This document shows positions 798 to 57,864 of a stretch of DNA of 60,209 nucleotides, piece by piece. The position numbers and the translations under genes were made by a program. Below the pieces are notes generated by a model. It was not told where the DNA came from. It did not search any database and saw nothing but the letters and a program-made list of their open reading frames with translations. The DNA comes from Candidatus Desulfofervidaceae bacterium (lineage in GTDB: Bacteria; Desulfobacterota; Desulfofervidia; Desulfofervidales; Desulfofervidaceae): contig JALWFG010000003.1 of assembly GCA_027038965.1 (NCBI GenBank), positions 1-60,209 on the forward strand. Reading direction: 5' to 3'. Position 1 is the stretch's first letter, and every line of letters begins with the position of its first letter.

Positions 798-1103
798 TTA
801 CGAATCATTATAAAATTCATCATAAACTGGATCTCCAGGACCATCACAGGTAGAAGCATTAAAGTGGACTCCCCAGGCCCAGAACTTCTCCTCTTGCTCC
901 CGCTTCCACCACTCCTCATCCTCTCTCTCCATTTCTGCCTCAGCCCTGTGCAGTGCTTCAAGCCTTTTTCTCTTTTCTTCCGGAGTGAGTGGTCTGAAAA
1001 GAGAAAGAGGCTTTCTCCCCTTCTTCAGGCGGTAGAAGTTGTACACCCAGATGCAGTAAATGACGGTGATGAAAGAAGCCGCTATCAAACCCATTGCTGC
1101 CAT
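798..1103 (-). CDS. small single-pass membrane protein, element paralog of 57538-57864
   Basis: A 101-residue protein with one hydrophobic helix (about residues 3-24), then a basic and acidic tail with a PEEKRKRLEALHRAEAEMERED helix and an acidic C-terminus ending PGDPVYDEFYNDS. The protein at 57538-57864 in the right element has the same plan: N-terminal helices, charged middle, and a C-terminus with PGNVWYNNDDE. Both lie downstream of the initiator/iteron region, so this is an element core gene. Function unknown; an entry-exclusion or mating-channel accessory role would be a guess. Confidence 0.55.
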   Translation of the reverse strand: MAAMGLIAASFITVIYCIWVYNFYRLKKGRKPLSLFRPLTPEEKRKRLEALHRAEAEMEREDEEWWKREQEEKFWAWGVHFNASTCDGPGDPVYDEFYNDS

Positions 1104-1843: not shown

Positions 1844-1883
1844 GGTGCAGTCAATCCCGTTGACACGGGATTTCTCCTGCACC
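1844..1883. other. conserved origin hairpin II (left element)
   Basis: Two nested stems: GGTGCAG (1844-1850) with CTGCACC (1877-1883), enclosing AATCCCGT (1853-1860) with ACGGGATT (1865-1872) around a TGAC loop. The outer GGTGCAG/CTGCACC stem recurs at 57405-57437 at the same place relative to iterons and hairpin I. Candidate single-strand initiation or nick site; function inferred. Confidence 0.6.
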
Positions 1884-1951
1884 GAGCAGCCTAAGGCTGG
1901 CGTTCAACCATTGGTTGGTAGGCGGGCGGCTGGGGTATTTTATTTTTTTTT

Positions 1952-1994
1952 GGGGAGAGAGGGTGCCAACCGAAGGGAGGCACCCTCTCTCCCC
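1952..1994. other. conserved origin hairpin I (left element)
   Basis: Perfect 16-bp inverted repeat, GGGGAGAGAGGGTGCC (1952-1967) and its complement (1979-1994), with an 11-nt loop that reads TCCCTTCGGTT on the minus strand. The right element has a 17-bp version with an identical loop (57265-57309). The T-run lies on the wrong side for a terminator in either direction, and the position beside the iterons suggests an origin element such as an ssi-type priming site. Confidence 0.7.
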
Positions 1995-2061
1995 CCTAAT
2001 ATATTAAAGGGGATTTTGTGTCTTTTAACTGCCCTATAAATCTTTACTTTTAGAAACAGCA

Positions 2062-2144
2062 GGTTCATGTTACGCACCAAAAGGTTCACGCTACGCATCA
2101 AAAAGTTCATGTTACGCACCAAAAGGAGTTCGTGTTACGCACCA
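2062..2144 (-). repeat. iteron array (4 copies), left element origin
   Basis: Four direct repeats, on the minus strand TGGTGCGTAACATGAACC with small changes, at 2062-2079, 2083-2100, 2104-2121 and 2127-2144. Spacing is 21, 21 and 23 bp, i.e. two helical turns. The copy nearest the initiator gene overlaps its last codons and stop (CATGGTGCGTAA). The right element repeats this exactly, including the 23-bp first spacing. Likely binding sites of the initiator encoded next door. Confidence 0.85.
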
Positions 2145-2974
2145 TGTTTTAGGGCCTGTTTCTTACTACACGGGGTTGAGTATGCCCAACAAAATTGATA
2201 GTAGGAGTTCTTTTTCTCAACTTTGTAGCTCTGGAGGTAACCCGCAGCGACAACATCATCAAAAGCCTTTTTAAGCTCGTATCTGCTTTTTTTCTTTTCT
2301 GTATAGTGCAAGTGCAGGGCCTGGAAGATAAGGTCTTCTTTACAAACTGTATTTCGCTGTCCTTGTAACCACACCATTAAAAGCTTTCCGATATCAGTTC
2401 TGCACTGCTGGATATAAGATATGTTCAGTTTAAGAAAAAGAAGGTTTTCTTTGTATTTCTTTGCAGCGTCAATGAAATTTTTATTTATCCAGAGTAGCCA
2501 CTTTTTTTGTTTTTCTTCTTTGAAGTCCAGTAAAATTTTAACGCGGCTAAATTCGCTGCCTTTGTAGAAATATGTCCACGTACAATCTGCCAACCTTTCA
2601 AGGCTTTGTCTTACTGCCTCACGGGTTCTACTGCCCCATTTTAATTCTCTATACCCCTCAACGAACTGTCGCACGCCAATTTGGAGTACATACATGCGCT
2701 TTTCTTCCTTGCCATCTGGCCCTTTGTAGCAGCCGCCGTCTTCTAAAGGAGATTCAAGGGCTGCTTTCGTAAGAGCCAGCAGGGTCAAAAGGTCAAAAGC
2801 ATTCAAAGTTTCTCGCGCAGTTATTTCCAGCTTTTCAAGCCTTCCCCAGTTAATTTTGTAGACTGCAGCGAACCCCCTGGTTCTTTTTCGGCTGGGTGAA
2901 ACAGGCAAAACATGCACCATTTGGGTCATTAGCAAGCTGTAATTAGATGGATGGTGGCGTTTTTCCTTTCCCAT
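2135..2974 (-). CDS. plasmid-type replication initiator (RepC/RepA-like)
   Basis: A 279-residue basic protein, homologous along its whole length to 56278-57093. Shared blocks include HVLPV.PSRKR, INWGRLEKLEITARETLNAFDLLTLL, GSRTREAVRQSLERLADCTWTY, and DIGKLLMVWLQGQRNT. The layout (two winged-helix-like halves) and its position directly upstream of iterons argue for an iteron-binding initiator. GGAGGGAG precedes ATG 2974, and the gene overlaps the helicase by 32 nt, so the two are translationally coupled. The exact Rep family is not certain from sequence alone. Confidence 0.7.
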   Translation of the reverse strand: MGKEKRHHPSNYSLLMTQMVHVLPVSPSRKRTRGFAAVYKINWGRLEKLEITARETLNAFDLLTLLALTKAALESPLEDGGCYKGPDGKEEKRMYVLQIGVRQFVEGYRELKWGSRTREAVRQSLERLADCTWTYFYKGSEFSRVKILLDFKEEKQKKWLLWINKNFIDAAKKYKENLLFLKLNISYIQQCRTDIGKLLMVWLQGQRNTVCKEDLIFQALHLHYTEKKKSRYELKKAFDDVVAAGYLQSYKVEKKNSYYQFCWAYSTPCSKKQALKHGA

Positions 2975-4583
2975 TTCTTTTACTCCCTCCGTTGTTTTTG
3001 TTCTCGCCTTGCCCTTGCTTTACGTCCTCCCATATCTGCTGGATGGTGCGGTTTAGCCTTTTAACTTGGATTTGCTGCCCTTGGCCTTGGTTTAACAGAT
3101 TTGAATGGAAGAGTTTAATGAGTACGGGTTTCTGTCTTTCCATGATATTGTTTTTGGTGTTTTGAATTAACAGCCAATCCGCTGGATATGTCCGATCCTC
3201 CTGCGCCACTTCTGCTTCATCAAAAATTCTGGCAACGAAATCTTTTCTTTCGGGCTCTTTGCTGCTAACCAGGTAAAACTCAAGATTTCTGATTTGGAAA
3301 ACAAGCCGCGCGCAGTCCGTTAAAGAAGAAGCGCCCCTAATACTATTCATAACCAGATCTTCTGTCCGCCCCGTTTTGTTTAGATGGTGGATTAAAAAGA
3401 CTGCTGTCCCAGTAGTCTTTGCTATAGAGTCAAAAAAGCTTGAAAATTCCGCCATGTAGGCGTTGTCATTCTCGGCTGCTATCAGTCGGGAGATGGGGTC
3501 TACAATGATCAAGTCGGGCTTGAACTGCTGGGCTTCGGCCAGCAGCCGCAGCTTGAGGTTTTTCCCAAAGTCAGTTGGGCTGAGGCTGTATCTGTCCAGG
3601 ACAGGGGCAGGTTGAGGGTCTACCGCCAAAAAGCGGATATTAAAAGGATTTCGGAGAAGGTTAACACTTGAACGCCGGCAAAGGTATTTTAGCCGCCGGC
3701 TAATCGTTTCTTTTGAATCTTCAAGGGTAACATAGATGGTTTTGAGGTTATACCTAACTGCCCAGTAGTAGACAAAAAACAACAGTAAAAAGCTTTTACC
3801 CACCCCTCCCTGGCCGCCGATGATTGAGACGTAGGGGCCTCTGGGTAAGAAAATAGGATCGTCGGCGACTAGCAGGTCGGGTCCTTCGGTGACTTTTTCC
3901 ACCTCGCTGGGGGTAATTGAGAAGTTGACAATCTGCCTTTTACCGCTGTTACCATGCAAGGCGTTGAAAATTTCTTCGGCTTGGTGGTTGATTTCTTGGG
4001 GAGACGCGGCAGGGTCCTGCAGAGTGAAAAGTAGGCCCTGAGCGGCCAGCAGAGCCTGTTTTTTTCTGGACGTTTCTTTTATCAGGCGGGAGTAATAGGT
4101 AACAGTTTCCGGATTCGCGAAGGGAATGCTGTTTGCGAGTTCAAGGAGTTTCCCGAAATAGCTTCCGCCTTTTTCTTCTTCTTTGCCTTTTTTCCTGAGG
4201 TGGGAGAGGACGGAGACAGGATCAAGCGGTGCTTGTTTTTCAAATAGCTCAACTAACGCTTGAAAAATTTCCCTATTCTCTTCATAGTAGAAATCGGCAG
4301 GTTCAAGGCCGCACTCCAGAGCGATGGGTAGAGGGTGAAAACCTTCGTCTTCGGAGTCGGAGAAAGACAGGATAGTCCCGATAAGGGTTTGCTCAGCCTC
4401 CAGGTTGTGGGGGAGGGAACGGTATTTTTTCTTTTCCCGGGTCCCGGCCTGATTTCCCCATCTCTTCCCGGCACCGGAAGAGGGGGAAGAAGAGGGCGTT
4501 TGGGGTTGAAAATTATATTTTTTCTTGCTATTATCATCTCTGACTGGTGCGGCTGCGGCCGCGCCGGTTTTTCCCCACATCAT
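2943..4583 (-). CDS. DnaB-type replicative helicase fused DnaB-N/RecA-like
   Basis: 546 residues. Residues 1-50 are low complexity (GAAAAAP...); about 55-180 form a DnaB N-terminal-like domain (LPHNLEAEQTLIGTIL, DFYYEENREIFQALVELFE); about 235-480 form a RecA/RepA-type ATPase with Walker A GGQGGVGKS, Walker B LIIVDPISRLI, the FLIHHLN H-motif and SIRGASSLTDCARLVFQI. RSF1010 RepA-like ATPases share the second part. AGGAGG precedes ATG 4583. Operon order: small DNA-binding gene, helicase, initiator, iterons. The right-element homolog is split by a frameshift. Confidence 0.8.
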   Translation of the reverse strand: MMWGKTGAAAAAPVRDDNSKKKYNFQPQTPSSSPSSGAGKRWGNQAGTREKKKYRSLPHNLEAEQTLIGTILSFSDSEDEGFHPLPIALECGLEPADFYYEENREIFQALVELFEKQAPLDPVSVLSHLRKKGKEEEKGGSYFGKLLELANSIPFANPETVTYYSRLIKETSRKKQALLAAQGLLFTLQDPAASPQEINHQAEEIFNALHGNSGKRQIVNFSITPSEVEKVTEGPDLLVADDPIFLPRGPYVSIIGGQGGVGKSFLLLFFVYYWAVRYNLKTIYVTLEDSKETISRRLKYLCRRSSVNLLRNPFNIRFLAVDPQPAPVLDRYSLSPTDFGKNLKLRLLAEAQQFKPDLIIVDPISRLIAAENDNAYMAEFSSFFDSIAKTTGTAVFLIHHLNKTGRTEDLVMNSIRGASSLTDCARLVFQIRNLEFYLVSSKEPERKDFVARIFDEAEVAQEDRTYPADWLLIQNTKNNIMERQKPVLIKLFHSNLLNQGQGQQIQVKRLNRTIQQIWEDVKQGQGENKNNGGSKRNGKGKTPPSI

Positions 4584-4603
4584 TCAGCACCTCCTCACTT
4601 CTT

Positions 4604-4831
4604 CTAAAGTCCCAAATTTTCAAGCTTTTTTGCCCTCTTTTCCGCTTCAGCTATTGCCTTTTGCACCATTTCCTCCCAGACTCGCACTCGCAGAAAAAGC
4701 CGATTGCCAATTCGCACGAAAAGCCTTGGATGTCTTCCGATACAGTGCCACTTGTACAAGGTTTCCGGCTTGAGGTGAATTCCCGCTTCCAGCAGGGCTT
4801 TTCTATCTTTTACCCAAACCAGTCTTTCCAT
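4604..4831 (-). CDS. small helix-turn-helix/excisionase-like protein
   Basis: 75 residues: MERLVWVKDRKALLEAGIHLKPETLYKWHCIG..., the pattern of MerR/excisionase-type winged helices (helix, turn, WH..GRHPRLFVRIGNRLFLR wing), then an Ala/Glu/Lys helix. ATG 4831 is chosen because AAGGAGGGAAAG lies directly upstream; the frame is open further but without a ribosome site. It ends 20 nt before the helicase start and probably regulates or accompanies the replication operon. A remnant of the same 3' end precedes the third helicase start near 12.69 kb. Confidence 0.6.
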   Translation of the reverse strand: MERLVWVKDRKALLEAGIHLKPETLYKWHCIGRHPRLFVRIGNRLFLRVRVWEEMVQKAIAEAEKRAKKLENLGL

Positions 4832-6475: not shown

Positions 6476-7045
6476 TTATTTGCTTGCCAGGTTCACCTCA
6501 GAGGGGCTGACAATCCCTTTCTCCACAAGCCACTTTGCGATGTCACCTGCGATCTTTGTTAAACACTTGCGGGTGGTTATCATGAGCGGCTTTTTTGCAA
6601 GCAACAGGTCAGAATGCACGGCCTTTGCCCTGAAAACCCTTTCCTCTCCGTCTGGAAGGATTACTTTGTAGGCAATTATCGTTCGCAACCGGCCCAAAAA
6701 AGCTCCACTTTCAGTATCTTCAAGCACTATGTTCAGCCCCTTTTTTCTAGGGCTCTCGGCCAGTTCAAACCGGGCATGGGGCAAAACTTTGGCCAGATAG
6801 GGAAGGATCATCTCACTAGAAGCCTTTATTTTTGTTAGGTCAACTGAGGGGACTTTGTAGAGAAATGCACGTGCATACTTTTGGGTGGCCCTTTTCACCA
6901 CAACCACAACCGGCCTGCCGCTCACGGGACCTGTGGGGATTTGCCCATTTATTCCTGCCATTTTTGTTAGGTTGTAAGTAGCACACGCCCCAAGCCCCAT
7001 GACCATGCCTGCAAAACACACCAGAAGAAAAAGCCTTTTAAGCAT
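6476..7045 (-). CDS. lipoprotein A, element paralog family
   Basis: 189 residues with a lipoprotein signal: hydrophobic LFLLVCFAGMVMG then lipobox LGAC (Cys 21). The mature part contains YKVILPDGEERVFRA and a conserved end CLTKIAGDIAKWLVEKGIV. The gene at 16581-17204 encodes a close paralog with the same signal and C-terminus. The start overlaps the AbrB-like gene by 8 nt, and the paralog has the same neighbour, so the pair is a duplicated module. Function unknown; anchored in the envelope. Confidence 0.65.
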   Translation of the reverse strand: MLKRLFLLVCFAGMVMGLGACATYNLTKMAGINGQIPTGPVSGRPVVVVVKRATQKYARAFLYKVPSVDLTKIKASSEMILPYLAKVLPHARFELAESPRKKGLNIVLEDTESGAFLGRLRTIIAYKVILPDGEERVFRAKAVHSDLLLAKKPLMITTRKCLTKIAGDIAKWLVEKGIVSPSEVNLASK

Positions 7046-7460: not shown

Positions 7461-7515
7461 TATGGTTTGGTATGGTTTGATGGTATCATAGTTGAGTTTT
7501 GTGAAGGAAGAAAAT

Positions 7516-8865
7516 ATGTTTTCATTAAAGTTTAATATAAGGAATTTTGGCAACATAAAAGAGGCAGAGATAGAGCTTAAGCCTTTAACAGTTTTCATGG
7601 GCTTTAACAACACTGGAAAGACCTATCTCTCGTATCTGCTTTATGATTTGCTAAAATCAAGCCCCAATATTTCTTTCAACTTTGAGAGTAACCTTCAAGA
7701 CAGGGTCATAGAGGGATTGGTAAAAAACAAAAGCTATATGATAGACCTTGAAGAATACCTGAACAAGAACAAGACAAAGATAGAAAGAAAGATAAATGAT
7801 GCATGTAAAGATTTCGGGAAGAGAGTGTTGAACTCGAATCAATCATTTAAGGGTGCGGAGTTTGAGATTGAAAACATATTCAGCATGAAAGAACAGAATA
7901 AAGCTTCTACACGTGCTGAGCTTTACGGCAGAAATATAGAGGCTGTTTTTGAAGGAAATACAATAACCATAAGAACAAACAGAACTATAACCAGGAGAAA
8001 TTTGAGAAAGGGCTCAAACGCATACAAAACTTTCAAGAAGAGATTAGAGGATTTTTTAAATTTCTGTGTAAAAAACTTCCTATTCCCGGGAGAGGTATTC
8101 TTTCTTCCTGCAGAGAGGGCAACACTAATACAGGTGATGGATTACCTGGAGATTTTTACTTTTCCGCTTTCTTTGTTTGGAAATCTGGATAGCTTTAAAC
8201 TTCCTTCACCTATAATCGACTTCAAGCATTACTTTGAGTTTTACAGTTCAGGCAAGAGCTTTTTTGAAGATGTATCGAGTTTTCTTGAGTCTGAGGTATT
8301 GGGTGGAGAAGTGGAGATAATTCAGAAAAATAGCCCTTATTCAAAAAAAGTGATATATAAGTATAAAAACAATGAAATTGACATAAAAGCGGCGTCAAGC
8401 GGCGTCAAAGCTCTTTCGGGGCTTAATGTCCTGCTGAAAAAAAGGTTATCAAAGGGCGATGTTTTATTTATAGATGAGCCTGAGATTACACTCCATCCAA
8501 AAAACCAGATCAAACTTGTGGAAGCGTTTGGTATAGCCGTTAATAAGGGCCTAAACACTGTTATGGCTACGCATAGCCCATACATAGTTGACCACATAAA
8601 CAACTTGATTTTGGCTTATGAAGCTATAAATAAGGATAAAAAGGGTTCAATAAAGGTTTTAGAAGAGTATGGAATAAGACAGGAAAGCTTAATTGATCCT
8701 GACAAAGTGGCTGCGTATGAATTTAAAGAAAACGGAGAAGTTGTTGATGTTTTCAACAGGGATGAAGGGTTTATTAATTGGGAAACATTTGGAGAATATT
8801 CGGATAGGTTGTCTGAAATTGGTTATGAGCTAAACGAAGTTTTAAGAGAAAAGGATGAGCGTTAG
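7516..8865 (+). CDS. AAA_15/OLD-like ATPase of a two-gene ATPase-nuclease system
   Basis: 449 residues. Walker A GFNNTGKT near residue 33; mid-part FLPAERATL, frequent in AAA_15/AAA_21 proteins; ABC-type signature region SSGVKALSGL; Walker B DVLFIDEPEITLHPKNQ; and the H-loop MATHSPYIVDHINNL. These are the marks of SMC/ABC-like ATPases found in OLD, Septu, PARIS and related defence systems. ATG 7516 is chosen because GAAGGAAG precedes it. Low G+C unlike the flanking element genes, suggesting separate acquisition. Its stop overlaps the next gene by 11 nt, so both are made together. Confidence 0.75.
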   Translation: MFSLKFNIRNFGNIKEAEIELKPLTVFMGFNNTGKTYLSYLLYDLLKSSPNISFNFESNLQDRVIEGLVKNKSYMIDLEEYLNKNKTKIERKINDACKDFGKRVLNSNQSFKGAEFEIENIFSMKEQNKASTRAELYGRNIEAVFEGNTITIRTNRTITRRNLRKGSNAYKTFKKRLEDFLNFCVKNFLFPGEVFFLPAERATLIQVMDYLEIFTFPLSLFGNLDSFKLPSPIIDFKHYFEFYSSGKSFFEDVSSFLESEVLGGEVEIIQKNSPYSKKVIYKYKNNEIDIKAASSGVKALSGLNVLLKKRLSKGDVLFIDEPEITLHPKNQIKLVEAFGIAVNKGLNTVMATHSPYIVDHINNLILAYEAINKDKKGSIKVLEEYGIRQESLIDPDKVAAYEFKENGEVVDVFNRDEGFINWETFGEYSDRLSEIGYELNEVLREKDER

Positions 8866-9319
8866 CCTGAAACAGTTTTTCAACGATAAAGGCGTGTGTA
8901 CTTTGTTTTCCAATTTAGTCGTTAAAACATCCTTGAAAGATAAAGGTAGTGGAGGAGCGGGTTTTAACTTCAATAAAGAAGAAAATGAACTTTTTTTGCC
9001 AATTAAATTAGATGGTGGATTGTTTAAGCAACAGACAGGCAAGATAGCCGATTTTTTAATTTATTACAAGAGCGAAAACTCGAATCTAAAGGTGGTTATA
9101 CTTGAATTGAAGGGCAAAGTTAAAAATAGAAGACCAGAGGAGCAGGTTGAATCGACAATACAACTAATCAAGAATAATCATTCTTTCATGATCCCAGAAA
9201 GTGCCAAAATCCTTAAAATAGTAAAGGTAAGAAGTTCATCCCCGAAGATGAATAAAAAGAAAAGCGATATTCTTTATATTTCTAACGACAATAAGATTGC
9301 AAAAGTGATCAGGGGTTAA
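8855..9319 (+). CDS. small PD-(D/E)xK-like protein, partner of the ATPase
   Basis: 154 residues. The central block KIADFLIYYKSENSNLKVVILELKGK shows an Asp followed, after a strand, by E-L-K, the D...ExK pattern of PD-(D/E)xK nucleases; EEQVESTIQLIK then forms a helix. Not matched to a named family. It starts inside the ATPase stop region (translational coupling). A degenerate copy of its first 35 codons lies at 15112-15219 with a 24-bp insertion. Inference: nuclease effector triggered or released by the ATPase. Nuclease assignment rests on one motif. Confidence 0.6.
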   Translation: MSVSLKQFFNDKGVCTLFSNLVVKTSLKDKGSGGAGFNFNKEENELFLPIKLDGGLFKQQTGKIADFLIYYKSENSNLKVVILELKGKVKNRRPEEQVESTIQLIKNNHSFMIPESAKILKIVKVRSSSPKMNKKKSDILYISNDNKIAKVIRG

Positions 9320-13210: not shown

Positions 13211-13457
13211 TTAACAATTCCTCAGGTGTCCAAAGCTTTTTTTGAGGACGCTTTTCCTTTTCGTGAATTTCAAATTCCAAACCGAGAAGATCCAGTAAAC
13301 GGCAAATTGTTCCAAAGGCTACAAGTGGTGCGCGTCCAGCTTCAATCTTTGAAAGTGTAGCCCGAGCTATTCCTGCCCTAAAGGCCAGGGCTTCCTGGGT
13401 TAAACCAAGTTTTCGACGTCTTTCGCGTATCTTCTTTCCAAGGGCCTCGCAGTTCAT
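13206..13457 (-). CDS. hipB: HipB-like XRE-family antitoxin
   Basis: 83 residues with a Cro/XRE helix-turn-helix: LGKKIRERRRKLGLTQEALAFRAGIARATLSKIEAGR, then FGTICRLLDLLGLEFEI. It lies downstream of hipA with an 80-nt overlap, the reverse of the usual hipB-hipA order. Known role: binds operators and the HipA kinase. The overlap means hipB translation probably depends on hipA translation, which is odd for an antitoxin. Confidence 0.85.
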   Translation of the reverse strand: MNCEALGKKIRERRRKLGLTQEALAFRAGIARATLSKIEAGRAPLVAFGTICRLLDLLGLEFEIHEKEKRPQKKLWTPEELLS

Positions 13458-14658
13458 GCGGCAGCTCCTTCACAGTGTTCTTGAGGTTTGCTCCAAGTGA
13501 AAACTCAAGTATGGTTTCAAATCGGTCGTAGAGTTTCTTCCATTCAGGACGGTTCTTTTTAAGGGTCCGCACTTTGATGAGCAGGTCTTCCGCAGCCGTA
13601 AGACAGTCCTCAAAAAGTTCACGAACTCGTTTTGCAGAAAACCCACAGGCAAGTCTTCCAAACTCTTCAAGCTTTGATCTTGAAAACCACACCTTCCTTC
13701 CGAACATGGTAAGTGCTGGTTGATCCGTCGGATCGTAAATCCAGGTGCAAACCACATCGTAAACCGGGGCCAGGCGTACATCGTTTGCATAAGGATACGA
13801 ATAAAGCACACCGAAGTTTTTAAGGTGTGCATCACCGTTCTTGAGGAGGAAGTTCATCACAAGGAGTTTAAAAAATCGTTCAAGGTCCTTTTCAGGGTTA
13901 GCAGAAATTTTCCGCAGAGCTTTTGCTACAGCCTCATAAGATCCGTCGTACTTGCGTTCCCTGGTTTTCCAAAAAAGTGAGGCGAACTCCTCAAAACCAA
14001 AAGGGCTTTCTCCTAAATCAAACCGTTCAATCACAAAAAGCCGTCCGTGCTGAGAGAGCCAGAACCTGGGCACTTCAAGCCCTGCTTTAACACAGGCAAG
14101 TAAGGAAAGCCGTTCATTTTCCGTAAGGAGAAAGAATTGTTTTCCAAAAGCCTTAACGACAAACTTTTTCGTGCGCAGAGCACCTTTCTCGTCATCTTCA
14201 AATTCGGCCAGCACCTTGGGCTGAACGCCTCCAAGCGGCGAAGCGGTAAGGAATGCTCGCACCAATTCCTGGAAAATGCCGGAAAAGTCGTCTTTAAGGA
14301 CTTCTGAAAGCCTAAAAATCGGTTTTGGGGACTTTGGGGACGTGGTCTTTTCTTCAACTTTAAAAGTGAGGAACCCCTCAACGGCCGGAGCCAGTGTTTT
14401 GAAAATATCAAATTCCTCAAAAACCTCAAAACGCTTGGCAAGCATATCCCGTAATACCCGATAGAGCCACCCTTCTGGCATAAACTGGTCAAAAACCGGA
14501 ATAAAGTCCACGTAAGACACATAGCTTTTTGGGGTATACGGCATTACCAGGGAAACTGGATTGTCCTGTAAATAGTTAAAAATGTGTTCCTTAGACTCAG
14601 AAAGATAGTGATACTCTCCCGAAAACTCACTGCCTGCAAAAACCTCAATTTTGCTCAT
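13378..14658 (-). CDS. hipA: HipA-like Ser/Thr kinase toxin
   Basis: 426 residues. N-terminal couple domain (VFAGSEFSGEYHYLSE, FDQFMPEGWLYRVLRDML); central HipA kinase with SPLGGVQPKVLAEF and FVVKAFG; catalytic loop NFLLKNGDAHLKNFGVLY; metal-binding LAPVYDVVCTW. All key residues are present, so it is probably active. Known family activity: phosphorylates glutamyl-tRNA synthetase or similar targets and causes growth arrest. ATG 14658 preferred over an in-frame GTG at 14676; neither has a clear ribosome site. The 3' end runs 80 nt into hipB. Confidence 0.85.
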   Translation of the reverse strand: MSKIEVFAGSEFSGEYHYLSESKEHIFNYLQDNPVSLVMPYTPKSYVSYVDFIPVFDQFMPEGWLYRVLRDMLAKRFEVFEEFDIFKTLAPAVEGFLTFKVEEKTTSPKSPKPIFRLSEVLKDDFSGIFQELVRAFLTASPLGGVQPKVLAEFEDDEKGALRTKKFVVKAFGKQFFLLTENERLSLLACVKAGLEVPRFWLSQHGRLFVIERFDLGESPFGFEEFASLFWKTRERKYDGSYEAVAKALRKISANPEKDLERFFKLLVMNFLLKNGDAHLKNFGVLYSYPYANDVRLAPVYDVVCTWIYDPTDQPALTMFGRKVWFSRSKLEEFGRLACGFSAKRVRELFEDCLTAAEDLLIKVRTLKKNRPEWKKLYDRFETILEFSLGANLKNTVKELPHELRGPWKEDTRKTSKTWFNPGSPGL

Positions 14659-14859
14659 ATTATTTATCAATAACACATTTGAGGCTATTTGTCAAAATAT
14701 ACAGACAAAATTGCTTGAAAATTTCTTTCCATCACCTCAACATCATCACAGCCTCTGTCTGCCAAGGGTGGAGAGGGAGTTATCCTAAGGAAATGCAGAA
14801 ACAGAGCGGATGATGCGGACGATAAAGGAAGAGGTTATTTGGCTGCATGAATTTACAAG

Positions 14860-16431: not shown

Positions 16432-16597
16432 CCCCCCTGAGGTGAAAAGACCTCAAGGGGGGGGGGGGTATTTCCCCCGTTAAATTGTTATTTCTATTTA
16501 ACGGGGTTTATCTCTTTTGAGCTGGGCTTTGCCCAGGTATCGAAGATACCCGCAGATTCACCCTGTTAAACAGTTTTTATTCATTTAACAGGGTGAA
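16432..16597. repeat. cluster of five consecutive palindromes
   Basis: In order: CCCCCCTGAGGT with ACCTCAAGGGGG (16432-16468, ending in a run of 12 G); CCCCGTTAAAT/ATTTAACGGGG (16475-16506); CTGGGC TTT GCCCAG (16522-16536); GGTATC GAA GATACC (16536-16550); TTCACCCTGTTAAA/TTTAACAGGGTGAA (16557-16597, 14-bp perfect). The last supplies the final codons and stop of lipoprotein B. Several may act as terminators for the converging genes, but the density is far above what termination needs. Confidence 0.8.
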
Positions 16598-17204
16598 CCT
16601 CAGAGGGCTCAACAATCCCTTTCTCCACAAGCCACTTTGCAATGTCACCTGCAATCTTTGTGAGGCACTTGTTCAGGGTGTAGTGGTAAGTTCTTTTGTA
16701 GGAAATCCAGTTGGCTTTGGTGGCCTCAGCCCGAAACACCCTTTCCTCTCCGTCCGGAAGGGTCACTTTGTAGGCAAGATGGGTGTTAAACCTGGGACCA
16801 AATTTCACCTTCATATACTGGTCAACCAGCATGACTGCCACCTCTCCATCTTCTGGCCTTCTGGTTTTGTCATCTGTCAGGACAAACCGGGCATTGGGAA
16901 GTGCCCTTGCCAGATAGGGAATGATCATCTCACCTGAGGCTTCGGTTTGATCTCTTTTGCCGTCGAGTCCAGGAAGGCCACACCTGCCGGTCAAACCGGA
17001 TCTTATACACTTCACCATCTCATTTTTCACCACCAGCACAACCGGCTTTCCCTCTTTCTTCTGAAGTGCCTGATTGAAAAGGGTCTGGTTGGTCTTATCC
17101 ATCATGGCTATCTGGTCAAAGTGGGCAGTCACCGCCATTCCACACGCCCCAAGCCCCATGACCATGCCTGCAAAGACTGCTAAAAGAAAAAGCCTTTTAA
17201 GCAT
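16581..17204 (-). CDS. lipoprotein B, paralog of 6476-7045
   Basis: 207 residues with signal LFLLAVFAGMVMG and lipobox LGAC, near-identical to lipoprotein A there, and the same C-terminal YKVTLPDGEERVFRA and CLTKIAGDIAKWLVEKGIV. The middle differs: residues about 65-90 (CIRSGLTGRCGLPGLDGKRDQ) make better sense in another frame (VYKIRFDRQVWPS), so a pair of compensating indels is likely. The last codons HPVK come from an inserted palindrome. AAAGGAGGTAAAAGA precedes ATG. Function unknown. Confidence 0.6.
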   Translation of the reverse strand: MLKRLFLLAVFAGMVMGLGACGMAVTAHFDQIAMMDKTNQTLFNQALQKKEGKPVVLVVKNEMVKCIRSGLTGRCGLPGLDGKRDQTEASGEMIIPYLARALPNARFVLTDDKTRRPEDGEVAVMLVDQYMKVKFGPRFNTHLAYKVTLPDGEERVFRAEATKANWISYKRTYHYTLNKCLTKIAGDIAKWLVEKGIVEPSEVHPVK

Positions 17205-17504: not shown

Positions 17505-18601
17505 TCAGTTTTTTTGCCTATTTTTGAAATCGATCACCTTTGCAAGTGTTTCCGAGGCTTTCTGCAGGCGGCCGGGCAGAAAGTGCGAATACCTCTGGCT
17601 CATTTTCAAGTCCGCGTGTCCCAGAAGCTTCGCCACTTCATAGAGCCCGACGCCGTTGCTCACTAGAAGGCTTGCAAAGGCATGGCGGAGGCTGTGAAAG
17701 CGAAAATCGGGGGGGATGTCTGCCAGAGCCTTTATTTTTGCCCAGGGCTTCTTAAAAACCTTTCTCTGCTCTCCGTTCAAGCCCGGAAAAACATATTCAG
17801 CGGTTCGCGGCCTGTTTTTGAGCACCTCGACGGCCAGATGATTCAACGGAACCGCGAGAGGTTTACCCGACTTGCTTTCGCGCAGGTAGAGAATGTTATT
17901 GTCAAAGTCTATGTCCTGCCATCTTAGCCTAAAAATGCTTGATTTTCTCAAGCCTGTGTAGAGAGTGAACCGGACGATGTCCGCTGCATCTCTGTCCGGA
18001 TATTCTGCACAGACCTCAAGCAGCCGCTTCACCTCCGGCAGGGTGAGGTATTGCACAACGCCGTTGTTCACTTTTGGCTTTTCCACTTTTGCAACCGGGT
18101 TTTCTCCCTCAAACATGCCCCATTTTGCCGCTAAGTTGAAAATCCGGTTGATGAGTTGCAGGATGTGCTTGATGGTCTGAGGTTTCAATTCCCCTTTTAA
18201 GCTGGTCATGAGCCTTTCAATGTCGTAGGTGGTAATCTGCTTAAGATTTTTGCTGCTCAACTTTTTTAAGTGTTTCTCATAACGATAAACATCGGTGTCC
18301 CAGCTCTTCTTTGTCTGTTTCGCATAGGGCAAATAATGCTTTTGCCAAAATTCACCCAGAGTAATGTCTGCCTTTTTTTGTAGTAATTTCCAGCCACCAG
18401 CTCAGATTTAATCTTGCTCTCTATCTGCCTTGCCAGCACAAGACTGCCCGGAACCACTTTTGAGACCCTCCTGCCGTTTACCATCACCCGCACGTAATAC
18501 ATTCTGCCCTGTTTTGGAACCGGCGTCCCGCATCTGGGGCATTTTTTGTGTTTCAGGCCAAAGGTGTTCTTGCATTTGAGGCAGAGATGATACACAGGCA
18601 T
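17505..18601 (-). pseudogene. tyrosine recombinase (integrase) with N-terminal zinc ribbon, one frameshift
   Basis: ATG 18601 (GGGAGG upstream) starts PVYHLCLKCKNTFG..KKCPRCGTPV, a C2C2 zinc ribbon, then an arm-binding region (YYVRVMVNGRRVSK). At a run of seven A (plus strand T 18373-18379) the frame must slip by -1 to continue DITLGEFWQKHYLPYAKQ. The catalytic domain follows: R in YTGLRKSS, K in SKSG, H-x-x-R in HSLRHAFASLL, H in LLGHAD and Tyr in RYSHF. Lies beside the att site at 18782, so it is the element's integrase. The slip may be real decay, a sequence error or programmed frameshifting. Confidence 0.8.
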
Positions 18602-18638
18602 TCCGCAGCCTCCCTGTATTTGTTGTCCTTGATTTCTG

Positions 18639-18657
18639 GTGGACACATAGTGGACAC
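18639..18657. repeat. GTGGACAC direct repeat near att, possible arm site
   Basis: GTGGACAC at 18639-18646 and 18650-18657; GTGGACATAG again at 18901, beyond the tRNA fragment. Placement around the att site suggests integrase arm binding. Short, so weak. No gene between 18602 and 18781. Confidence 0.35.
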
Positions 18658-18781
18658 TTCAGCAGTCATTTCCAGCTATTTACAGAAAAAAACAGAAATT
18701 ATTCATAAACACTTTTTGCTTATATCATGGGAAGTTAGAAAAGTCAAAAAAGGAGAGAAAGACTAAGAAAAACTTTCAAAA

Positions 18782-18830
18782 CTGGCCTCTCACGCCAGAG
18801 ACACGGGTTCAAATCCCGTTGGGACCACCA
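18782..18830 (+). other. attachment site: 3' half of tRNA-Glu(CTC)
   Basis: Starts at the anticodon stem: CTGGC, loop CTCTCAC (anticodon CTC), GCCAG, variable AGAC, T-arm ACGGG TTCAAAT CCCGT, 3' acceptor TGGGACC, A, CCA. No 5' acceptor GGTCCCA or D-arm lies upstream, so it is not a tRNA gene but the duplicated 3' half left by integration of the element on its left. The full gene is expected at the other element end, outside the window. Core chromosome begins at 18831. Confidence 0.85.
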
Positions 18831-19138
18831 AATAAAAATCAAGGAATTAAGGCCAGTTGGGGAAATAGCCTGACTGGTTTTTGTTTTTGACCGGGCAGGG
18901 GTGGACATAGGGTAAAGATAAGTAAAGGCAGGGTAGAGAAACGGTTCTTTGTCTGCTTTTTGCCTTCCTAGAACTATCTGTGTCCTGAGTTTCCATTTCC
19001 TTGAAAACATATCTTTTTAACCCTTTTCAGATTTCTGCGGGTGTTTTTTTAGAGTAATTCCCAATTTTGGGATTTTTAGGGATTGACGTTTATTATACTT
19101 TTTGTTAAGTTGTTTTTAATTTTTAGTGGAGGGTAAAA

Positions 19139-53048: not shown

Positions 53049-53184
53049 CGCTAACACCTCCTTATCTTCTATTTTAGGCATTCAAATCATAAAATCAAGC
53101 CCAAAATCCAGAAATAAAAATCTCTTAATAATATATATCGGCTAAAAGTAAGAATACGGTTGGATTAAGGTTGAAATAAAAAAA

Positions 53185-53254
53185 TGGCGGAAGCGCATGG
53201 GAATCGAACCCACCACGGACACCTCTCCGTGCCCGCCACTGGATTTGAAGTCCA
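53185..53254 (-). other. attachment site: 3' half of tRNA-Sec
   Basis: On the minus strand: anticodon arm TGGA CTTCAAA TCCA with UCA anticodon, long variable arm around CACGGAGAGGTGTCCGTG, T-arm TGGG TTCGATT CCCA, 3' acceptor TGCGCTTCC, G, CCA. The 5' acceptor and D-arm are absent (A+T-rich sequence instead), so this is the duplicated 3' half at the border of the right element. The intact selC should lie at that element's far end, outside the window. Confidence 0.85.
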
Positions 53255-54141: not shown

Positions 54142-54215
54142 AAGCAGCGGGCATTGTTAAGAAGTCCCCTAAAAATCAATTTTTTAGGAGGCAACAATGG
54201 CAATGTCCGCTGCTT
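54142..54215 (+). promoter_or_regulatory. long leader hairpin over the start of 54197
   Basis: Outer stem AAGCAGCGGGCATTG (54142-54156) with CAATGTCCGCTGCTT (54201-54215), 15 bp with one G-U; inner stem CCTAAAAA (54168-54175) with TTTTTAGG (54181-54188). The inner arm contains part of the ribosome site AGGAGG (54186-54191), and the start codon ATG 54197 is between the stems. Translation of the operon's first gene is thus likely controlled by folding. Confidence 0.65.
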
Positions 54216-54781
54216 TTTCTTTAGGAACATCCAGGAAAAAACTCATTTTTTTCTGGCAAACTCACCAGCGGGTCTCAAATTTTCTTGAAAAAAGAGGCAT
54301 TTATGCAACTGAGGCGATGGCGGCCTATATAGTTGTATACACCGCCAGCCAGGCCGCCCAGCGCGGCTGGGATCAGATAAAGGACTGGAAAATCGACGAA
54401 GCTTTTTGCCAACTCTACCGTCATAAGCCCGCCAAACGCCCTAAATTTCAGCAAAAATCGTCTATCTTGAGGTTTGTTGCCACCTGGGATGCGTGGAGCC
54501 TCAGGAAATACCCAACCATAAATTTCTCTTCTTTTTCAGTAAAAGACAACGCTGAAACATTCCTTATGCCTGCTGCCGGGGGCATGCCGGCAAGGAACCA
54601 AGATCTAACAGAGAAAATCAGGGGTCAGATCGAAGCTCTTGGCGGCGTGTGGAAAATGGCTGAGTTAGCCTTTCTGGAAAATTTAGAAAAAGGCCAACAA
54701 AAACAAAAGTTTAAACAACAGCAACTTTTTTCTCCCGGCACCGGGGACAACGGAAACGGCAAAGGAGGTGGAAAATGTTAA
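54197..54781 (+). CDS. first gene of right replication operon, unrecognised
   Basis: 194 residues. Opening MAMSAAFSLGTSRKKLIFFW; Trp/Ala-rich middle (AAYIVVYTASQAAQRGWDQIKDWKID); Gln/Lys-rich end (KGQQKQKFKQQQLF) with a low-complexity tail GDNGNGKGGGKC. No signal, no known fold. Its stop overlaps the helicase start. The left operon has an unrelated small HTH gene in this place. A replication or partition accessory by context. Confidence 0.45.
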   Translation: MAMSAAFSLGTSRKKLIFFWQTHQRVSNFLEKRGIYATEAMAAYIVVYTASQAAQRGWDQIKDWKIDEAFCQLYRHKPAKRPKFQQKSSILRFVATWDAWSLRKYPTINFSSFSVKDNAETFLMPAAGGMPARNQDLTEKIRGQIEALGGVWKMAELAFLENLEKGQQKQKFKQQQLFSPGTGDNGNGKGGGKC

Positions 54782-56303
54782 CCACCGCCCAGGCAGCCGG
54801 TGCCAGGAAGACCAGGGAGAAGAGGTGGGGGAATCAGGCCGGGAAAAAGAGAAAGGCACAATCCCGGCAATCCCTTCCCCATGACAGGGAAGCTGAGGAA
54901 AGCCTGATAGGCATTATTCTACTTTATTCAAAAGAAAGAGAAAAAAACAACTTTCACCCTCTGCCGATTATCTTTGAAGCTGGGCTGGAACCTTGTGACT
55001 TTTATTATTCGCAGAACAGAGAAATCTTCCAAGCCGCAGTCGAATTATACGAGATGCGGAGGCCGATTGATCCCCTATCAATTCTTAATCACCTGAAAAA
55101 AAAAGGCAAAGAAGTAGAAGGCAGTCTTTTCTCAAAGCTGATTGAACTGGCCAATTCAATCCCTTATGCAGATGCAGAGACCACCTTCCATTACGCGCAA
55201 ATAGTTAAAGAGGCTAGCAAAAGGCGCCAACTGGTTGCCCGGGGGTTTGAGGTTTTTAAAGCCGCTCAGGATTCAACCTTACCAATTATTCAACCTTACC
55301 AATTGAAGAAATCGCAGAAAGAATTCAAACAGTTAAAGAAATAATCACAGACAACAGGGTTGTTCAAAAATACGTGCTTGCTCCTAGTGATCTGCAAGAT
55401 GAGGAACAAGTTGACTTAATCATATCCAATCCATTCCCACTGCCACGGGGTGTTTTAGCCATTCTAGGGGGGCAAGGCGAAACGGGAAAAAGCTTCTTAA
55501 CTCTTTATCTTGCCTCCCAGTGGGCAAAGCAGGGCGTAAAAACCCTCTACTTTTCTCTAGAAGACTCTCTGGTTTTTACAAAGAAAAGGTTAATATACTT
55601 GGCGAAACATACCGCACTACCGCGCGAAATATTTTCTAACTTAGTACTTTACAGGGTAAAACCTCAACCAATTATTGATCAATATTCACTGCAGCTTACC
55701 TCTTTCGGGAGAAAATTTGAATTTTATCTAAGGTCTCAGGTTAAGCTTCTTCGTCCAGACGTAATAGTCATTGACCCGATTGCATTTTTGTTGATTAAAG
55801 AGAATGACAATGCCTATGCGGCAGCAGTAATGGACGTCTTCAACTCAATTCTGGAAGAGGCAAATGTTACCATAATTTTGCTGCACCACTTGAACAAACT
55901 GGCCAGAGAAGCAGATGGCGAAGGAGTAAATAATATTCGGGGCGCGAGTGCTTTAACAGACCACTCAAGATTCGTGATAGAAGCGAGAAGGCTTTCCTTT
56001 TACGCAACCCGCTCAAGAAGGAAGCTGTTAGCAAAGATCTGCGAGAATGCAAAAATACCACAGATTAGCAGTGAAAAGACTGCACGACAATGGATCTTGG
56101 TTAAAAATACTAAAAGCAGCCATTTGCCTGCACATTTCTTGCCCTTTTTGGTTAGGTTATTTCCTGCCCCTGATCCCTTGAATAATAACGACGAAAGCAT
56201 CGTAATAAAGCCCATGTCTCACTACCTGGAAGCCCTTCTTGAAGAATTAGAAGAAGAAAACAATGGAGGTAAAAGCAATGCAAAAAAAAGAAAGCAGTAT
56301 TAA
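54775..56303 (+). pseudogene. DnaB-type replicative helicase split by a 17-bp duplication
   Basis: First part (54775-55344) is the DnaB-N-like domain (LPHDREAEESLIGIILLYS, DFYYSQNREIFQAAVELYE). Second part (frame open from before 55374 to 56303) is the ATPase: Walker A GGQGETGKS, Walker B VIVIDPIAFLL, ILLHHLNK, NNIRGASALTDHSRFVIEA. Homologous to 2943-4583. The frames differ because a 17-bp unit is present twice (55272-55305); with one copy the sequence reads AAQDSTLPIEEIAERIQ without interruption. So either inactivated or made as two polypeptides; the GTG at 55374 could start the second. Confidence 0.8.
55272..55305 (+). repeat. 17-bp tandem duplication causing frameshift
   Basis: TTCAACCTTACCAATTA (55272-55288) followed by TTCAACCTTACCAATTG (55289-55305). 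The unit is not a multiple of three and sits between the two domains of the helicase. Confidence 0.9.
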
Positions 56304-57093
56304 TTACAGCCTACTCCTGAGGCAGATGATACACGTCCTGCCTGTTACCCCGAGCAGGAAGCGGAAGAAAAATTTCCGTGCAATCTACAAAGTCAATTGG
56401 GGGGACCTAAAAGCACTTCAAGTTACAGCAAGGGAGACGCTGAACACCTTTGATCTCCTTACCCTTTTGAGTCTAACAAAGGCAATAATTGAGTCCGAGT
56501 TAAAGGACGGCGGCGTCTGGAAAGACCCCGACGGCGAGGAACGGAACATGTATGTTTTTGATGTGGGTACGCGCAGGTTTGTCGAGCGATATAGAGGCCT
56601 GAGGTGGGGAAGCAGAAACTACGAGGCAGTCAAACAGAGTTTTGAAAGATTAACAGATTGTACATGGACATATTGCTATATAGATGGACTTAGCCGCGTT
56701 AAAATTCTCTTAGATTTTCAGGAAAGAGGCGGAAAGTGGGCTTTCTGGGTAAGTAAAAACTTCGCAGATGCTGCAAAGAAACGGGAAGATTTTTTGAAAG
56801 TCAACATGTCTTACATCCGAAGCTGTAAAACTGATCTGGGGAAATTACTTCTTGTTTGGCTCCAGGGACAGAAAAATACTGCTTGCCAGGAAGAGCTTAT
56901 TTCACAGGCGTTGCACCTCTCTTGCACACAGAAAAAGAAAACCAGATATGAACTCAAAACGGCATTTGCCAATGCCGTTGCCTGCGGTTACTTGCGGGAT
57001 TTCACCCTTGTAAAAAGGAACTCTCATTATCAATTTTGCTGGACACACTCAACCAGGAATTTAGCTAACAGGCACTCAAAACATGGTGCGTAA
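56278..57093 (+). CDS. plasmid-type replication initiator, right element
   Basis: 271 residues, homologous to 2135-2974 throughout (NYSLLLRQMIHVLPVTPSRKR, VNWGDLKALQVTARETLNTF, DLGKLLLVWLQGQKNT, and the same end KHGA). GGAGG 8 nt before ATG 56278 fixes the start. Overlaps the helicase by 26 nt. The last codons CATGGTGCGTAA form the first iteron, as in the left copy. Since the initiator is intact while the helicase is split, the element may have lost autonomous replication. Confidence 0.7.
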   Translation: MQKKESSINYSLLLRQMIHVLPVTPSRKRKKNFRAIYKVNWGDLKALQVTARETLNTFDLLTLLSLTKAIIESELKDGGVWKDPDGEERNMYVFDVGTRRFVERYRGLRWGSRNYEAVKQSFERLTDCTWTYCYIDGLSRVKILLDFQERGGKWAFWVSKNFADAAKKREDFLKVNMSYIRSCKTDLGKLLLVWLQGQKNTACQEELISQALHLSCTQKKKTRYELKTAFANAVACGYLRDFTLVKRNSHYQFCWTHSTRNLANRHSKHGA

Positions 57094-57187
57094 TAGGAAC
57101 CTCTGATGATGCATAACAGGAACCTTTTGATGCATAATAAGAACTTTTTGATGCATAATAAGAACTTTTTGATGCATAACAGGAACC
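57084..57187 (+). repeat. iteron array (5 copies), right element origin
   Basis: Direct repeats of TGATGCATAACAGGAACC type at 57084, 57107, 57128, 57149 and 57170 (18 bp each). Spacing is 23, 21, 21 and 21 bp. The first overlaps the initiator stop. Core sequence differs from the left set (GATGCATAA versus GGTGCGTAA), so each initiator probably recognises its own iterons. Confidence 0.85.
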
Positions 57188-57241
57188 ATCTATTTTCAAA
57201 AATAAAAATATGTAGGGAAGTTAAGTATCATGAAGAAGCCT

Positions 57242-57309
57242 TTAAGATATCTTAAGATATCTAAGGGGGAGAGAGGGTGCCTCCCTTCGGTTGGCACCCT
57301 CTCTCCCCC
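57242..57309. other. conserved origin hairpin I (right element)
   Basis: Perfect 17-bp inverted repeat, arms 57265-57281 and 57293-57309, loop TCCCTTCGGTT identical to the left copy. Just before it AAGATATCTT appears twice (57244-57262). After it comes an A-run, then CCGCCCGCC and ACCAACCAACGGTTGAACG (57332-57360), again shared with the left element. Confidence 0.7.
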
Positions 57310-57404
57310 GAAAAAAAATAAAACACCCCGGCCGCCCGCCCACCAACCAACGGTTGAACGATGGGAGATGCGACGGCATGGCAGCTGCCAGCCCTGGACT
57401 GCCC

Positions 57405-57437
57405 GGTGCAGGGGAGAAAAGGTTTTTTGACTGCACC
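57405..57437. other. conserved origin hairpin II (right element)
   Basis: GGTGCAG (57405-57411) and CTGCACC (57431-57437), loop of 19 nt. Same position and stem as 1844-1883; the inner stem of the left copy is not kept. Candidate single-strand initiation or nick site. Confidence 0.55.
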
Positions 57438-57537
57438 CTTATTCAAACGCCTTTTTTTGAACCAAAATTTTTAAAAAAAATATGGTTTGACTTTTTGTTT
57501 TTATGTAATTAAGCTAAGTGAAGGAGGAAAGAAAAAA

Positions 57538-57864
57538 ATGAGAAGGCACATAAAAACATGGACAGCAATCGGGGTTCTGTTTATTTTGCTTGTTGGTCTT
57601 TTTAAGTTTTCCTTTCCAATGGCACAGCCATGGTGTCTCTATTCGCTGGCTGCTTTCTTTGCTGTAGCAGGAGTGATACTCCCAAAGTGGACATATGAGG
57701 TACTGAGGTACAGGAAAAGGTATGGGAAATTTCCTGAAGTACCTGAACAGACAAGAAAAGAAAAAGAATGGGAGGAACTGGTGGAGGATGATACAGACTT
57801 ACTTTTTAATTCTGCTTTCAGCAATTTCCCTGGTAATGTATGGTATAATAACGACGATGAGTAG
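57538..57864 (+). CDS. small membrane protein, element paralog of 798-1103
   Basis: 108 residues. Two hydrophobic helices (WTAIGVLFILLVGLFKF; YSLAAFFAVAGVILP), then RKRYGKFPEVPEQTRKEKEWEEL and an acidic end. AAGGAGGAAAG precedes ATG 57538. Same genomic place, beyond the origin, as its left paralog. Function unknown; part of the shared element backbone. Confidence 0.55.
   Translation: MRRHIKTWTAIGVLFILLVGLFKFSFPMAQPWCLYSLAAFFAVAGVILPKWTYEVLRYRKRYGKFPEVPEQTRKEKEWEELVEDDTDLLFNSAFSNFPGNVWYNNDDE

Follow-up and report, generated by a model that had tools for sequence, protein, structure and literature searches.

Putative plasmid-type replication modules with an IncQ-like layout in two tRNA-integrated elements of a Desulfofervidaceae bacterium

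Does an element that sits in a tRNA gene carry a replicon of its own, and if so, how would it replicate? The question is raised by contig JALWFG010000003.1 (C3), the whole of which (60,209 bp) forms the window analysed here. It belongs to a heat-loving Desulfofervidaceae bacterium with a genome (G000) of 2.19 Mb in 21 contigs, and both of its ends lie inside integrated elements, termed left and right. Each element carries a module with genes for a helicase and an initiator, followed by iterons, an AT-rich stretch, a hairpin and a GC-rich block. We consider it likely that each module is a plasmid-type replicon, and that the tRNA-integrated element replicates as a circle after excision. The module would most likely be the origin and replication cassette of the excised form, IncQ-like in its working and outside IncQ proper.

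Layout and proteins of the modules

An earlier note on this DNA had described a layout common to both elements, and this is borne out by the coordinates below, by shuffled sequences and by a ranking of the longest hairpins. That description needs amending for the helicase, which is intact only on the left and is spread over two frames on the right.

Left module:
2943-4583, minus: helicase of 546 amino acids (aa), intact, with a DnaB N-terminal domain and a RecA/KaiC-type (IncQ RepA-like, AAA_25) ATPase core, from Pfam, hhalign and PDB searches
2135-2974, minus: initiator, 279 aa, intact, tandem winged-helix and RepC-like by predicted fold and RepC homology
2057-2143, minus: four iterons of about 21 bp, consensus beginning GRTGCRTARYRNGAAC, starts at 2143, 2120, 2099 and 2078 (spacing 23/21/21)
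1995-2057, minus: AT-rich stretch (71% A+T) with a AGGGCAGTTA motif, a candidate duplex-unwinding element by composition and alignment
1952-1994, minus: perfect 16-bp hairpin, loop TCCCTTCGGTT (fold z -5.0)
1902-1930, minus: conserved GC block GCCGCCCGCCTACCAACCAATGGTTGAAC, from the alignment
1844-1883, minus: second hairpin, GGTGCAG/CTGCACC, with an inner 8-bp stem (folds well, z -4.4)

Right module:
54775-56303, plus: helicase, frameshifted (DnaB N-terminal domain 54775-55344, ATPase core 55374-56303)
55271-55304, plus: exact 17-bp tandem duplication breaking the helicase, downstream of which the frame resumes helicase sequence
56263-57093, plus: initiator, 276 aa, intact, 62% identical to the left initiator
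57085-57191, plus: five iterons, starts at 57085, 57108, 57129, 57150 and 57171 (spacing 23/21/21/21)
57192-57264, plus: AT-rich stretch by composition (76% A+T), with a AGGGAAGTTA motif
57265-57309, plus: perfect 17-bp hairpin, loop TCCCTTCGGTT (fold z -7.1)
57331-57359, plus: conserved GC block GCCGCCCGCCCACCAACCAACGGTTGAAC, from the alignment
57405-57437, plus: GGTGCAG/CTGCACC pair (weak fold, z -1.1)

The stop codon of the initiator gene lies inside the first iteron in both elements (TAA on the left). The iteron pattern is confined to these two sites in the window, and shuffling either origin region 2000 times yielded no match to it. The 16-17-bp hairpins of the two origins are the longest perfect hairpins in the 60-kb window. 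Left and right are 91% identical in the hairpin and GC block, 80% in the origin as a whole and 70% in the initiator gene. A search of the organism's own genome, 39 relatives and viral contigs found the origin block in these two places only, both in its own genome.

The non-coding region could also be read as an origin of transfer (oriT) or a control region, with the hairpin acting as a transcription terminator or attenuator. There is a TraG-like gene in the element, and hairpins are common in oriT regions; however, the overlap of the iterons with the initiator stop codon is an IncQ-2-like feature, and no relaxase gene was seen near the origin region, where no relaxase profile search was made. 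As to termination, an A-run comes after the left hairpin and neither strand has a T-run there, which argues against intrinsic termination of the operon at this hairpin, and terminator scans do not list it. We regard this explanation as very improbable.

The initiators have no match in Pfam, PHROGs, NCBIfam or the PDB sequences, and tblastn with the left initiator found none in 72,556 plasmids or 50,697 phages. A profile of the initiators nevertheless aligns with three IncQ RepC proteins over 200 collinear columns at an hhalign E of 6.3e-7, the reference set being IncQ-1 and IncQ-2 proteins from the plasmid collection. Among controls, 91 unrelated proteins scored E values of at least 0.042, 60 column-shuffled profiles at least 0.074, and reversed sequences 0.24-0.28. 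When the winged-helix parts were compared with RepC separately, the first gave 1.2e-4 and the second only 0.015. Identity to RepC is about 17%, which is under Pfam detection, and the comparison with RepE by sequence gave an hhalign E of 0.39.

In structure comparison, the best matches of the predicted initiator were initiators throughout. Foldseek matched the predicted initiator to RctB (E 7e-5), with nothing found among viral structures, and in fold comparison the model scored Z 9.5 with RepE, 9.3 with RctB and 7.1 with pi, against 5.7 or less for unrelated chains. The predicted fold is thus of the RepE/pi/RctB type, a tandem winged helix, and by remote homology the initiator appears to be a distant relative of IncQ RepC with putative iteron binding.

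The earlier note had also assigned a DnaB N-terminal-like domain to the helicase, and Pfam agrees (E 9e-18), with AAA_25 matching at E 2e-17. The core aligns with IncQ RepA (hhalign E 1e-12), and a profile search of the PDB returns T7 gp4 (2e-6) and RSF1010 RepA (5e-5). By homology, this would be a RepA-type hexameric helicase, the hexamer being predicted.

Comparison with IncQ and other replicons

IncQ plasmids are small and mobilisable, replicate with their own primase, and have been described mostly from Proteobacteria. Their replication involves repB, repA and repC, and their origin (oriV) combines iterons with two palindromes and with regions rich in GC and in AT (PMC7557826); RepB' primes at one single-strand initiation (ssi) hairpin per strand (PMC4434180). 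The modules resemble these plasmids, especially pTC-F14 (NC_004734) and pRAS3.1 (NC_003123) of IncQ-2, in the gene order of RepA-like helicase, RepC-like initiator and iterons. The pTC-F14 layout is shared by the modules: its 22-bp iterons extend over the stop codon of repC, and beyond them lie a GC-rich stretch, CCGCCCGCC, and a hairpin with perfect pairing. Both modules have the parts expected of an IncQ-type oriV, namely 20-22-bp iterons with AT-rich and GC-rich parts. Motifs CCGCCCGCC and ACCAACCA are common to the modules and the pTC-F14 origin and are lacking in the other IncQ plasmids checked, and loop motif CCGAAGGG is common to the modules and IncQ-3 palindromes (PMC7557826); neither likeness was used as proof.

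The modules also differ from IncQ. No RepB primase and no mobilisation genes were found in the modules, the helicase bears a DnaB N domain, and the elements are integrated at tRNA genes in the chromosome. The earlier description as IncQ-like therefore stands for the RepC and RepA homology and the pTC-F14 layout, and fails for the primase, the helicase domain and the chromosomal site. The modules were not assigned to IncQ, because neither a RepB primase nor membership of the RepC family model was found when both were looked for.

A true IncQ-type strand-displacement replicon would have its two hairpins as ssi sites and its primase gene in the unsequenced part of the element. The RepC- and RepA-like proteins speak for this, as do the iterons, the AT- and GC-rich parts, the hairpin and the motifs shared with pTC-F14. 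Against this, none of the module proteins is a RepB or RepB' primase (parts of the elements are missing from the assembly), and the 194-aa accessory protein described below is predicted to be all-helical. The two ssi hairpins that the earlier note had suggested fare differently: the first is strong in all three known copies of the module, while the second folds on the left, is weak on the right and has no counterpart seen in the sibling copy described below. Both hairpins also lie on the same side of the iterons, and a helicase with a DnaB N domain would be expected to work with DnaG. We think a true IncQ-type replicon rather unlikely.

Other known replicons match the modules in part. The closest layout found is that of a Nitrosophilus labii plasmid, pHRV44 (NZ_AP022827), which has transfer genes of the F type, encodes a DnaB-N/RepA-like helicase (E 9e-16 against the window helicases) and a 277-aa protein, and has 22-bp iterons. 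It differs in that tRNA integration is not shown for it and no similar hairpin is present at its origin. Since its helicase is related, the helicase part of the design is not unique to the modules. The 277-aa protein was considered as a homolog of the initiators and rejected, being not detectably related to them or to RepC. In pHRV44 itself (L034:8170-8702), copies of the 22-bp iteron, five of them in tandem, follow the DnaB-N helicase gene and the gene for this unannotated protein, which is probably an undescribed plasmid initiator.

Rep_3-type initiators (RepE of F, pi of R6K) and Vibrio RctB have in common the tandem winged-helix fold predicted for the modules, which differ from Rep_3 replicons in having no sequence match to RepE and in having their own helicase; Rep_3-type replicons generally use host DnaB. 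The Cch-Rep replicons of SCCmec and SaPI are likewise chromosomal integrative elements with their own replicative helicase, but it belongs to another helicase superfamily and is a self-loading initiator helicase, with no separate RepC-like initiator (PMC7581432). ICEHin1056-type integrative elements have a DnaB-type helicase gene in a replication and stabilisation module; this module is larger (parA, dnaB, parB, ssb, topB and a primase gene), and the parts of the account consulted describe no RepC-like initiator (PMC3739013). In the searches made, the combination of a RepC-like initiator with a DnaB-N helicase in tRNA-integrated elements was found nowhere else.

The integrated elements and a third copy

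Both elements show the features of integration at a tRNA gene, a tyrosine integrase and, at each end, directly repeated tRNA 3'-end sequence, and the repeats of 75 and 72 bp confirm the earlier description as tRNA-borne, although no tRNA gene adjoins either module. The boundary features in the window are the following.

18781-18855, plus: right end of the left element, 75 bp of tRNA-Glu 3' fragment and flank, without mismatch to the intact tRNA-Glu locus at G000:C18:200855-200929
17505-18646, minus: tyrosine integrase of the left element, in two frames, adjoining the 75-bp repeat
53183-53254, minus: left end of the right element, 72 bp of tRNA-SeC 3' fragment, without mismatch to the intact gene at G000:C16:30907-30978
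58298-60196, minus: TraG-like protein, C-terminal half; contig C16 begins with its TraG_N half

In each case the tRNA 3' fragment is turned towards the chromosome, with the element behind it, which is the expected outcome of integration into a tRNA 3' end. The chromosomal portion of the window runs from about 18.86 to 53.18 kb. An empty-site comparison using the gene beside the left element's end was uninformative, as relatives differ in gene order. Both elements run past the contig ends. The halves of the TraG-like protein indicate that the right element continues onto C16, where its integrase, likewise split into two frames, lies beside the intact tRNA-SeC gene; if C3 and C16 adjoin save for a short gap, the right element is about 38 kb long. 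The break within it is attributable to C3 and C19 terminating in the same sequence. The type IV secretion system is incomplete, with TraG_N found once and TraU not at all in a genome whose assembly is broken inside the elements.

The earlier note had asked for the module outside this genome, and a third, decayed copy is present in a sibling genome of the same genus (G001, a Candidatus Desulfofervidaceae metagenome bin, whose contig C35 is JAMOPI010000035.1). Its initiator is 38% identical and adjoins a tRNA-Arg gene, and its origin retains the AGGGAAGTTA motif and has a GCCGCCTGC block. A hairpin is found at the same position with perfect 19-bp pairing and a changed stem sequence, and the retention of pairing despite this change suggests that the hairpin structure is under selection. 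Among 395 genomes of the phylum, a profile search gave hits in the organism's own genome and the sibling only, and scanning genome and viral contigs for the pattern added the sibling genome alone. The proposal of an undescribed family is thereby narrowed to three copies from one genus, two of them damaged.

A related element on C19 (G000:C19:60311-69947, L024) starts at an intact tRNA-Phe gene and shares with the right element a TraG-like gene and a homolog of the 194-aa backbone protein. In place of the helicase and initiator, it has a DUF927/Cch-like helicase and arrays of the GGTTATCCC repeat, an apparent exchange of replication cassettes. Cch is the SCCmec helicase, and replication of SCCmec after excision has been proposed (PMC7581432).

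Several further genes lie close to the modules.

4604-4831, minus: small protein of 75 aa upstream of the left helicase, resembling a small DNA-binding protein, of no family
54197-54781, plus: backbone protein, 194 aa, all-helical, homologous to proteins of L024 (the Cch-type element) and of L005 (the sibling element)
1372-1617, minus: HicA-like gene after the left origin, family by resemblance, with a HicB-like frame next to it at about 1140-1361

The structure of the 194-aa protein gave no match and no likeness to a primase. A HicA/HicB-like pair (family by resemblance) follows the origin in the left element and at the sibling locus L003. Small membrane-like proteins with acidic tails are encoded after the origins (window 798-1103 and 57487-57864, and about 5166-5468 of L024), and the left (798-1103) and C19 copies are nearly identical at their N-termini.

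Elsewhere, the right element on C16:1-31000 (L022, L023) is dense in defence-like genes, including those for a GajB-like UvrD helicase (E 1e-154) and HmaB/HmaC-like, PbeA-like and PglZ-like proteins. The left element carries a PD-T4-4-like ATPase gene with a neighbouring partner gene (7492-9319, E 9e-52), a HipA-like gene (13378-14676, HipA_C 141 bits) and two related small lipoprotein-like genes (6476-7045 and 16581-17204) whose products share the start MLKRLFLL.

A possible mode of replication

For a plasmid-type replicon acting after excision, the following steps may be envisaged. The initiator would bind the iterons overlapping the stop codon of its gene, open the neighbouring AT-rich stretch and load the element's own helicase. 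In DnaB itself, the N-terminal domain takes part in contact with DnaG, so that recruitment of the host primase, in place of RepB, is the natural inference, in line with the earlier note, and the 16-17-bp hairpin may serve as a strand-initiation or priming site. The earlier note had suggested strand-displacement-like replication, which is not supported: a helicase that recruits DnaG normally primes the lagging strand too, which gives no reason to expect strand displacement, and if the DnaB N domain acts in this way, it favours a theta mode instead. For the right module, the helicase is either supplied in trans or the module is dead, whereas the left module is intact. The 17-bp duplication that disrupts this helicase might be a slip that can revert, or might stem from the assembly.

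Several points weigh against a working replicon. The Pfam RepC family PF06504 has no match in the Pfam scan or in the organism's own and sibling genomes, with control genomes silent too, and placement of the initiators in a well-described plasmid family, which the earlier note had considered, extends to remote RepC homology only. The initiator model is of low confidence (pLDDT 56), DnaG recruitment is predicted from the helicase domain, and the support is wholly computational. The right helicase is broken by the duplication, both integrases are split into two frames, and in the sibling module the DnaB-N/ATPase helicase is interrupted and the iterons are absent, so that decay may mostly explain the modules.

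This damage, and a transfer system of which TraG is the only part seen, would fit captured remnants of once-independent plasmids, the module being dead in every copy and persisting by inertia. Pure decay would not, however, leave origin DNA better conserved than coding sequence, and the left helicase and initiator are intact, with both initiator frames open at the identity given above. We hold the remnant explanation to be unlikely, if worth keeping in view, and retain that of a plasmid-type replicon used after excision. A further proposal, to which we give somewhat less than even weight, is that the DnaB N domain on a RepA-type helicase hijacks host DnaG at the hairpin, making this a DnaG-dependent IncQ-like replicon, and that its cassettes are exchangeable with Cch-type ones within one family of tRNA elements.

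The occurrence of primase-less modules in a thermophilic Desulfofervidaceae bacterium suggests that the IncQ initiator-helicase pair may predate its primase and be more modular than it. It raises the testable question of whether a DnaB N domain can replace RepB and so switch strand displacement to host-primed replication, and it adds to the case for plasmid-like replication of integrative elements.

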